DNA of 48,132 nucleotides from Singulisphaera sp. (GTDB lineage Bacteria; Planctomycetota; Planctomycetia; Isosphaerales; Isosphaeraceae). Positions 3,658 to 44,842 of the stretch are shown here, one piece after another (position 1 is the first letter of the stretch; every line of letters starts with the position of its first letter). The notes beneath the pieces were generated by a model that saw only the letters and a program-made list of their open reading frames with translations, had not been told where the DNA came from and searched no databases. A program made the translations under genes and the position numbers. The stretch lies in contig DAIDJG010000603.1 in the NCBI GenBank assembly GCA_027451445.1, forward strand, positions 1 to 48,132. The letters are read 5' to 3'.

Positions 3658-3859
3658 GTTCCGCTCGGATGGTTTTCGACCTCGCTTTGGGCCTTCGCGA
3701 CGCCGATCATTCCCGAGCATCGCAGCGCTGCGGACTGAGGCTGACCGGCCGAAACGCGTTGGGGTGGGCTGAGACCGCCCTGTGACGTTCGGTGCCTTCG
3801 TCCCAATCCAGTAGGCCCAGGTTTCCCCATTAACAAACCGCGCCGCGGAATGAGTCGTC
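3658..3859 (+). other. Leader region upstream of rpmI
   Basis: About 200 bases without a gene, between the candidate promoter and the rpmI ATG. In other bacteria, ribosomal protein L20 binds a leader or intergenic RNA of this operon to repress L35 and L20. The length and position would suit such a leader, but I could not identify the conserved L20-binding fold by eye. It is GC-rich with several short complementary segments. Confidence 0.3.
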
Positions 3860-4150
3860 ATGCCCAAACTGAAAACGCACAAAGGCATTAAGAAGCGGTT
3901 CAAGGTGTCGGCCACGGGCAAGGTGAGCCACAAGCGTTGCGGCTCGTCGCACTTGATGAGCCACAAGAGCGGCAAGCAAGTGCGCCGGCTCCGCAAGAAG
4001 TCGACGCTGAAGATCTCGGCCGAGGCGCATCGTCTGCGCCGGGCCGTTCACCAACGCGAAGGTTCGCAACCGCAGTCGATCGAGGCGGGCAAGTTGGTGG
4101 CCCTCGCCGAGCTGAAGGCGGAAGCCGCCGGCGATGCACCGACGTCCTGA
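3860..4150 (+). CDS. rpmI: Ribosomal protein bL35
   Basis: A 50S subunit protein. MPKLKTHKGIKKRFKVSATG is the L35 N-terminal signature, followed by the HKRCGSSHLMSHKSGKQVRR region typical of the family. At 96 residues it is about 30 longer than the usual 64-66: the extra C-terminal part, from roughly residue 66 on, is Ala/Glu-rich and not part of the standard fold. The start is ATG with GGAATGAG a few bases upstream. It is followed by rplT after 114 bases, the standard gene order. Identity is certain; the function of the tail is unknown. Confidence 0.96.
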   Translation: MPKLKTHKGIKKRFKVSATGKVSHKRCGSSHLMSHKSGKQVRRLRKKSTLKISAEAHRLRRAVHQREGSQPQSIEAGKLVALAELKAEAAGDAPTS

Positions 4151-4264
4151 ACGCAGACAAGAATGACGGAGCGGTTGGTGACACGTCGCCGGACCGCGTT
4201 TCGGGGCGGCCGGTGAGGCCGGCTGCTCTTTTCCCACACGATTTGCCGGTACTGAGAGTCCACG

Positions 4265-4663
4265 ATGCGTGCACCTAAAGGCGCGGCCCGCAATAAGGCA
4301 AAGAAGCGACTGTTCCGGGCCGTCGAAGGATTTGTAGGCGGACGGCGCCGGCTGCTCCGCATGGCCAAGGAGACCCTGCTCCGGGCGGGTGTCTTCGCGT
4401 TCCGCGACCGCCGGGCCAAGAAGCGCAGCTTCCGCCGGCTGTTCATCACTCGCGTGAGCGCGGCCGTCGAGATGCGGGGCCTGCGTTATAGCCGTTTCAT
4501 TCACGGTCTGCGCTTGACCCGAATCGGCCTCGACCGCAAGAGCCTCTCCGAGGTGGCGATTCACGACCCCGAGACCTTCGACGCGATCGTGGCTCGAGTT
4601 CGCGAAGCTCTCGACCAGCATGACGCTGCCGTACGCCAGCGCCAGGCGACCCGCACGGCGTGA
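4265..4663 (+). CDS. rplT: Ribosomal protein bL20
   Basis: An rRNA-binding 50S assembly protein, and the likely autoregulator of this operon by analogy with other bacteria. The 132-residue product has a very basic N-terminal arm (RNKAKKRLFRAVEGFVGGRR) and the globular part with FRDRRAKKRSFRRLFITR and GLRYSRFIHGLRLTRIGLDR, ending in the family motif RKSLSEVAIHDPETFDAIV. It is slightly longer than the usual 117-120 because of a short C-terminal extension. The 114-base gap after rpmI contains a small GGCC-rich hairpin (around 4206-4224). pheS begins 18 bases after the stop, so the two are probably co-transcribed. Confidence 0.97.
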   Translation: MRAPKGAARNKAKKRLFRAVEGFVGGRRRLLRMAKETLLRAGVFAFRDRRAKKRSFRRLFITRVSAAVEMRGLRYSRFIHGLRLTRIGLDRKSLSEVAIHDPETFDAIVARVREALDQHDAAVRQRQATRTA

Positions 4664-14269: not shown

Positions 14270-14614
14270 TTAGGCTGTGGGCTCTTGAGGAAGCAAGGGT
14301 TCGAGTTGCGCGAGGAGTTCCGGCACATACCGGGTCGCGGCTTCCCAAACGATCGCATCATCGATCCGATCGTAGCCGTGAATCAAGCGATCGCGCATAC
14401 CGGAAATCGCGCGCCAAGGCACTTCAGGGTGGGTGTCCCGGAACGAAGTGGTCAACCGCTTTGCGGCTTCGCCGATGACCAGTATCTGAAACAGGATCGC
14501 GGAGCGAAGTAAAGGATCGTTCTCCAGCGCGGTGCTGTCCTTTGCGCCCACGAACTGGCGAATGAGACGGCAAGCGAGCACGATATCGAGGAGCGTTGCG
14601 GGGTCACGATTCAT
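14270..14614 (-). CDS. hepT: HepT-type HEPN ribonuclease toxin
   Basis: A 114-residue all-helical protein of the HepT (DUF86) family. The catalytic HEPN motif R-x4-H-x-Y is present at R74, H79 and Y81 ([11 protein letters not shown]). [11 protein letters not shown] and [16 protein letters not shown] are family-typical. The ATG at 14614 overlaps the end of mntA by 11 bases. Known HepT toxins cleave RNA, commonly tRNA, and are silenced by AMPylation from their partner MntA. All key residues are intact, so the toxin is probably functional. Confidence 0.9.
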
Positions 14615-43997: not shown

Positions 43998-44231
43998 TTA
44001 CTCCACGGTCGATTCCGTTTCAAGCTGGCTTTCGAGTACCTCGATATACGCAGGGCTCGGTTTCTTACGAACGAGAACTCGGTAAACCCTCGCGCCATTG
44101 GGACCGAGCGGACCGCGAAACTCGACGATCGGCGCAGGTCCGTAACCGGAATTGCGAATGCGAACGATCGTACCGATCTCCAGAGGTTCTTGCAGGTTTT
44201 GCAACGTCACAACCGTATCCCCTATTACCAA
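43998..44231 (-). CDS. Small beta-barrel-like protein coupled to HEPN gene
   Basis: A 77-residue ORF. The likely start is the TTG at 44231, which overlaps the HEPN gene's stop (TTGGTAA), so translation would be coupled. The sequence IGDTVVTLQNLQEPLEIGTI and VRIRNSGYGPAPIVEFRGPL has the alternating pattern of a small SH3/KOW-like barrel, resembling DUF4926-type proteins; it ends in an acidic tail (EVLESQLETESTVE). No catalytic residues. It could be the partner or antitoxin of the HEPN protein by position; this is inference. Confidence 0.55.
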   Translation of the reverse strand: MVIGDTVVTLQNLQEPLEIGTIVRIRNSGYGPAPIVEFRGPLGPNGARVYRVLVRKKPSPAYIEVLESQLETESTVE

Positions 44232-44842
44232 GGCACGGCACCGAGGATGCGCGTAAGCTCTTGCTTCATGATATCGTCCAGGGAGATTGCAAGTCCATTG
44301 CATGAGGCACGCCATGCCTGAACATCGGCGAGGGTGAGTACGGAAGGTACACCGACCGGTGGCGGAGTTGCCTTTTGATGAGCCACGTGGTTTCGCCAGA
44401 AGTTCAAGTGTCCGAGATGAGTGATCCGTTGAGGGTTCCCCGGCGCGGCCGCGCCGAGGTCAAGGAAGAAACCGAACCGCTCGAAATCCTTCCGGATGCA
44501 CTCGAGAGTCGGGTTCCCAGTGTTGAGTGCCAGTCCTGCGGCAAACTGTGCCTGGATTGTCGTCTGCATTGTGGCTGTGGCTGTCGCGGCGCAAAGCTGG
44601 CCGCATTCCGTGTACAGATCCCGACAGAAACCTTGAAAGTGCCCGCTAACGAGCATGACGTAGCCTTGTAGGCTCTCGTAGGCGAGTTGAGGCACGACGG
44701 GTAGCGAGGCTGAGACACTAGCCGGCCCGGTTGTCGCGGGTGCGGCTTGAGGAGGCGCGAAGAGCGCAACGCAGTGCGCGTCAAAATGCCCCAATCGAGG
44801 CATTCGATCAGAGTGCCAGTGGGTCAACGCGGCGGAGGGCAT
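44225..44842 (-). CDS. HEPN-domain protein (putative RNase)
   Basis: A 205-residue helical protein. LAYESLQGYVMLVSGHFQGF begins a helix bundle and HLNFWRNHVAHQKATPPPVG contains the HEPN catalytic motif R-N-x3-H (R150, N151, H155). This is like RiboL-PSP-HEPN and related abortive-infection RNases. The N-terminal 45 residues are poorly conserved in style and the true start may be the ATG at 44803; neither candidate has a strong Shine-Dalgarno. The stop overlaps the small downstream gene. RNase activity is inferred from the motif only. Together the two genes look like a TA or defence pair. Confidence 0.7.
   Translation of the reverse strand: MPSAALTHWHSDRMPRLGHFDAHCVALFAPPQAAPATTGPASVSASLPVVPQLAYESLQGYVMLVSGHFQGFCRDLYTECGQLCAATATATMQTTIQAQFAAGLALNTGNPTLECIRKDFERFGFFLDLGAAAPGNPQRITHLGHLNFWRNHVAHQKATPPPVGVPSVLTLADVQAWRASCNGLAISLDDIMKQELTRILGAVPW

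Follow-up and report, generated by a model that had tools for sequence, protein, structure and literature searches.

Two neighboring genes on the minus strand of a 48,132-nucleotide contig of Singulisphaera sp. (this whole stretch is hereafter referred to as the window) encode a HEPN protein and a small SH3-like barrel protein and, to judge from the comparative data, probably represent a real, conserved and new toxin–antitoxin family of a known general kind. The reading that we favor, with moderate rather than high confidence, is that they constitute a toxin–antitoxin operon in which the barrel would bind and block the HEPN protein; RNase activity, dimerization, binding, neutralization and trigger are properties that we infer from conservation and analogy. 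According to the proposed mechanism, the HEPN protein would probably act as an RNase homodimer, with the R-N-x3-H motifs of the two subunits facing each other in the cleft between them, and the co-translated barrel would bind to it and either block the cleft or otherwise keep the protein inactive, an action modeled on the occlusion of the dimer cleft of the RNase VapD by VapX. Should the barrel be lost, degraded or displaced following phage infection, plasmid loss or stress, the free HEPN protein would cut cellular RNA and growth would stop.

The putative RNase toxin gene (44225..44842, minus strand) is identified by its open reading frame of 205 codons starting with ATG, by its similarity to Pfam PF18735 and by its motif. 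Its product contains an R150-N151-x3-H155 motif (in the context LNFWRNHVAH), a helix with the sequence FQGFCRDLYTE and a C-terminal PW. The motif, already pointed out in the first-pass annotation at residues 150–155, is present, its three residues being invariant in an alignment of 19 relatives, and is also kept in four further proteins. The match to the RiboL-PSP-HEPN family PF18735 (E 1.8e-5, 25.2 bits) lies just under the curated cut-off of 28.4 bits, whereas that of a paired relative, L020, lies above it (37.7 bits); L037 and L039 score 21.4 and 20.8 bits, respectively. Thus, on profile scores, the protein is placed near this family. The predicted structure is helical and of high confidence (pLDDT 93.1), and both the alignment and the model display the R-x4-6-H motif on a helical bundle that characterizes the HEPN superfamily. 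The solved structures nearest to the model are mostly HEPN proteins (7ae6, Z 8.5; 6m6u, Z 8.1), although Z values of 8.1–8.5 are common for helical bundles and a designed filament protein ranks between these two; a match to HepS of Salmonella Gifsy-1 (9oij, Z 6.5) is also found.

The downstream gene, the putative antitoxin, had originally been described as a 77-residue reading frame whose TTG start overlaps the HEPN stop. The overlap exists (TTGGTAA, 44225..44231, minus strand) and the TTG-started frame does comprise 77 codons (43998–44231, minus strand), but TTG is probably not the start; translation more likely begins at the GTG at 44210, yielding a 70-residue protein (43998..44210, minus strand). 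This GTG is preferred because it aligns with the ATG of L021, a paralogue in the same genome, because it is preceded at a distance of 8 nt by AGGGG, a possible ribosome-binding site in the intergenic sequence (44219..44223, minus strand), and because it is located 14 nt past the HEPN stop, a spacing usual among relatives, in most of which the gap measures 7–29 nt. A simple codon-based gene caller picked the same start. TTG nevertheless keeps some likelihood, since the ATG of one barrel gene, that of a relative on a viral contig, overlaps the stop codon of its HEPN gene. A chance reading frame was rejected in view of conservation and dN/dS.

The small protein finds no match in Pfam, NCBIfam, PADLOC or PHROGs. 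Its AlphaFold model is a small five-strand barrel (pLDDT 83.1) and agrees with the SH3/KOW-like nature attributed to it earlier; in structural comparison it comes closest to the C-terminal KOW domains of NusG, with a middling Z of 7.9 and many SH3-like folds close behind, and the sequence profile gives weak matches to ribosomal protein uL24 and, at E 0.011, to a designed SH3. With Foldseek, neither the HEPN nor the barrel model found a match reaching E 0.001.

If the pair is meaningful, the two genes should be found together elsewhere, and the co-occurrence proposed at the outset as a check is borne out. A preliminary PF18735 search of the source genome and 14 controls gave no match in any of them and is therefore uninformative as to absence. 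In a first search of 148 relatives the HEPN gene was found in 17 genomes, with the barrel reading frame right after each, broken copies included; when this set was searched again with profiles, 25 of 28 barrels, counted by eye, immediately followed a HEPN match. Extension to 397 genomes of the class yielded 61 HEPN rows in 39 genomes, corresponding to 57 genes, and a barrel is located directly downstream of 53 of them at a distance of 12–118 nt; adjacent, co-directional small genes conserved together in this way are a hallmark of type II toxin–antitoxin systems. The four remaining genes are that of G133, a member of a different PF18735 clade, two fragments and that of G502:C1178, which was not accepted as a HEPN gene devoid of a barrel since it lies at a contig end.

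Among 392 genomes of the phylum, eight contain a HEPN match; G316 has the pair, and the matches in G191, G290 and G420 are weak, two of them representing different HEPN proteins that lack a barrel. Beyond the phylum, this gene order recurs in two Nocardia records, on a Mycobacteroides abscessus plasmid and in one viral contig, and the barrels of these match the planctomycete-type profile with an E of 6e-9; a Mesorhizobium candidate was rejected, being a PF18735 HEPN without a barrel. This distribution indicates, at the level of sequence conservation, that the HEPN–barrel pair is real and old. In one contig (G309:C3) the N-terminal part of a HEPN protein and the C-terminal part followed by the barrel are found approximately 1 Mb apart, at ~295 kb and ~1358 kb (L030 and L034); the same sequence is present at both break points, so that the split probably arose by rearrangement through an inserted repeat.

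The two genes also appear to have been inherited together. The distance matrices of HEPN and barrel proteins are correlated (r 0.62 for 19 pairs, a value reached in 0 of 10,000 shuffles). Taken separately, the larger clade, with 14 members, gives r 0.68 (0 of 10,000) and the window's own clade of five r 0.64 (509 of 10,000). The window barrel differs from its paralogue L021 by a dN of 0.22 and a dS of 2.25, the latter near saturation, and dN is well below dS wherever dS can be computed; by this measure both genes are under purifying selection. A tree of the HEPN proteins sets 23 paired ones apart (support 100/99, on long branches and with a bootstrap that is not fully settled) from four unpaired PF18735-like proteins (L082, L031, L032 and L040), and the Nocardia–Mycobacteroides–viral group is nested among the paired ones. 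All four are HEPN proteins of PF18735 type, or related to it, and lack a barrel; L082 has the same C-terminal G-x-x-PW ending as the paired clade. The nearest relative of the window HEPN comes from another family, a finding that points to horizontal transfer. In one other genome of the genus a neighboring glycosidase gene is present (75% DNA identity), and the segment carrying an M48 peptidase gene and the pair has no DNA match in this same genome.

Is the barrel an antitoxin or rather an RNA-binding helper, the two possibilities left side by side in the first-pass annotation? The pattern of gene loss, which is one-sided, favors the former. The class scan identified 41 apparently intact HEPN genes, 39 of which could be judged (that of G133 and the contig-end gene of G502 being left out), and all 39 are accompanied by a barrel, so that, as in type II systems, the putative toxin gene, when intact and testable, is never seen without its putative antitoxin. 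The 69 barrel rows correspond to 68 genes, one reading frame (G598:C476) holding two barrels; 39 of these genes follow an intact HEPN gene, and for the other 29 the HEPN gene is broken, deleted or absent. The latter include 14 barrels preceded by a HEPN gene that is truncated or disrupted by stops or a frameshift, as well as 15 without a HEPN visible to the profile, four of which are preceded by a short remnant (G033, G616:C106, G554 and G648), none being seen in front of the other 11.

Considering that the barrel represents 25% of the coding length, zero barrel losses among 18 or 29 losses would have a probability of 0.005 or 0.0002, respectively, figures that are too optimistic in that independence does not hold for every loss; if only the 148 genomes searched first are considered, the excess of HEPN loss is weak. 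In reading these counts it must be kept in mind that several HEPN genes scored as broken carry just one stop or frameshift in a draft assembly, which may reflect a sequencing error, and that related genomes are not independent. The barrel of G586:C923, with a partial profile match, was not accepted as truncated, being a full though divergent reading frame.

A site kept whole or in part in several genomes of one family, with the order oxidoreductase, HEPN, barrel and HpcH aldolase, amounts to a natural experiment, insofar as in three genomes (G648, G630 and G508) the barrel has been kept and the HEPN gene is missing. In G648 the barrel is still preceded at close range by a HEPN remnant that ends in KPW-stop, as intact copies do, and this barrel, compared with that of a member of the same genus that still has the HEPN gene, has a dN of 0.098 and a dS of 1.52. 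Solitary barrels being under selection, the barrel could also have a function of its own. A further solitary barrel, with no HEPN upstream (L152, G642:C365), carries the first of the two types of C-terminal domain described below.

One-sided loss fits a toxin with its antitoxin, as in the case of VapD and its SH3-barrel antitoxin VapX. It must be weighed against a second reading, which we consider possible but rather doubtful, namely that a KOW/NusG-like or RNA-binding barrel directs the HEPN protein to its target, be it the ribosome, RNA polymerase or a particular RNA; activity would then require both proteins, and the C-terminal extensions would choose the target or sense the trigger. The invariable presence of a barrel beside an intact HEPN gene would be equally expected of a helper that the HEPN protein needs; moreover, the folds nearest to the barrel are those of ribosomal proteins and of the KOW domain at the C-terminus of NusG, and the barrel often bears an extension, either a conserved C-terminal domain of one of two kinds or, by fusion, a P-loop NTPase. 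A helper, however, is not predicted to outlive its HEPN, yet 29 of the 68 barrel genes lack an intact partner, and SH3-like barrels are so common a fold that a Z below 8 carries little weight. The antitoxin role is accordingly preferred over that of a helper.

As to known systems, the claim that the partner is not of the usual HepT/MntA type holds: HEPN/MNT (type VII) is likewise a two-gene module with a HEPN RNase toxin of similar fold (7ae6, 6m6u), but its antitoxin is reported to be a nucleotidyltransferase that AMPylates the HEPN protein, whereas the partner here is a barrel of 70–77 residues with an SH3-like model and without a Pfam match. The window does contain, as previously stated, a separate candidate HEPN/MNT pair, recognized by motif only: HepT-like (RDRLIHGY) and MntA-like motifs in minus-strand reading frames near 14395 and 14837 (14.4–14.8 kb).

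PF18735 is the HEPN family to which the present proteins come closest. The available part of a 2013 HEPN survey (Anantharaman et al., PMC3710099) presents RiboL-PSP-HEPN proteins as fused to endoRNase L-PSP or encoded in an operon with ParB and contains no mention of a barrel partner; the small barrel therefore sets the present pairs apart from the surveyed ones, while the four barrel-less proteins named above fall in another clade.

The closest functional parallel is offered by VapXD and VapYD, in which an RNase toxin is matched with a small antitoxin of the same fold class as the present barrel: VapX and VapY are described as SH3-like antitoxins, with VapX occluding the VapD dimer cleft, in the excerpted text of PMC11980593. 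VapD, on the other hand, is a ferredoxin-like Cas2 relative and the putative toxin here a HEPN protein. The barrels are compared by fold class only; VapX is not among the PDB matches listed for the barrel in the sequence-profile and structure searches.

Further known systems include RnlA/RnlB, LsoA/LsoB and AbiF, whose partner is a non-coding RNA. RiboL-PSP-HEPN proteins are not known to have an inhibitor, and none was found in the literature searched; likewise, no description of a HEPN–barrel pair was found in the open-licence literature, KOW, SH3 and beta-barrel are not mentioned by Makarova 2009 (PMC2701414), and the terms sought are absent from PMC12165695. PADLOC-DB has no family for the window pair and gave no significant match for seven further proteins. 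The barrel partner is thus probably a new antitoxin-type family, represented in none of the family libraries or publications searched. RiboL-PSP-HEPN proteins are common, and a barrel antitoxin, if genuine, would provide this family with a control mechanism and would mean that SH3-like barrels have been recruited more than once against dimeric RNases; the system, consisting of two small genes, is testable at once.

A role in defense, also suggested at first, stands only in part. The genes surrounding the chromosomal copies do not form defense islands: among 137 of the 152 nearest neighbor proteins (those of up to 900 residues) Pfam matches are mostly to core metabolism and PADLOC matches are few, the many PD-T4-6 rows each matching one protein only, probably a kinase. 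Defense islands were therefore rejected for these copies. No neighbor family recurs in more than five of 28 loci, for which reason the pair is seen as a free two-gene cassette. What speaks for defense is mobile carriage: the pair of the viral contig is located directly after an integrase and three pairs are on replicons of the plasmid collection, so that an anti-phage or addiction role may be considered. The viral contigs contain one locus only, found twice, and gave no match with barrel alignment A5; GenBank phage records gave no match to the pair; the plasmid search retrieved the two Nocardia records with barrel L037 and none with barrel L020.

Mobile carriage would also suit abortive infection as opposed to addiction, the HEPN protein remaining inactive as long as no component of a phage has been detected, with the barrel as sensor or off-switch, by analogy with Ith and Tha. 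The excerpted text of PMC11087260 reports that Tha, of Staphylococcus prophages, uses an R-N-x3-H motif (RNSIMH) and is inhibited by Ith, a small protein whose gene lies close to that of the integrase in the prophage, and PMC10952713, in the part available, lists PF18735 HEPN domains in PD-T4-2, PD-T4-5, PD-T7-3 and ApeA. Tha (301 residues) and Ith (66 residues) are, however, encoded on opposite strands, unlike the co-directional pair described here, and no homology was found, hhalign giving E values of 0.21 for Tha-1, 0.85 for Ith-1 and 0.45 for Ith-2. With this lack of sequence relation, the mostly housekeeping neighbors with few defense-model matches and the absence of matches in GenBank phages, we regard abortive infection as unlikely.

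The same neighborhoods might suggest an ordinary RNA-processing pair with a housekeeping role, the copies lying among core genes and one site being common to several genomes of a family. Such a role is highly improbable in view of the patchy presence (39 of 397 genomes), the occurrence of as many as six HEPN copies in one genome, the HEPN tree at odds with kinship, the frequent pseudogenes and the plasmid and viral carriage. The toxin–antitoxin operon thus remains the preferred reading, and within it the architecture of the partner allows a further, tentative extension: a modular toxin–antitoxin or abortive-infection family in which a constant barrel would hold the HEPN protein while swappable C-terminal parts sense different triggers and release the toxin. 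If so, a single effector would serve many alarms. The window partner is a bare barrel, and other barrels are followed by a conserved C-terminal domain, of which there are two distinct types with six and five examples, respectively, a third type being found in the Mycobacteroides barrel; the added parts have no significant match in Pfam, NCBIfam or PADLOC. Two unusual arrangements were also observed: in G025:C575 (L091, 7771–10089) the barrel frame continues into a protein of ~700 residues that resembles P-loop NTPases but has weak AAA matches only, with an ATG at the junction, and in G598:C476 (L164, minus strand) a single reading frame after an intact HEPN gene (3753–4331) comprises two tandem barrels.
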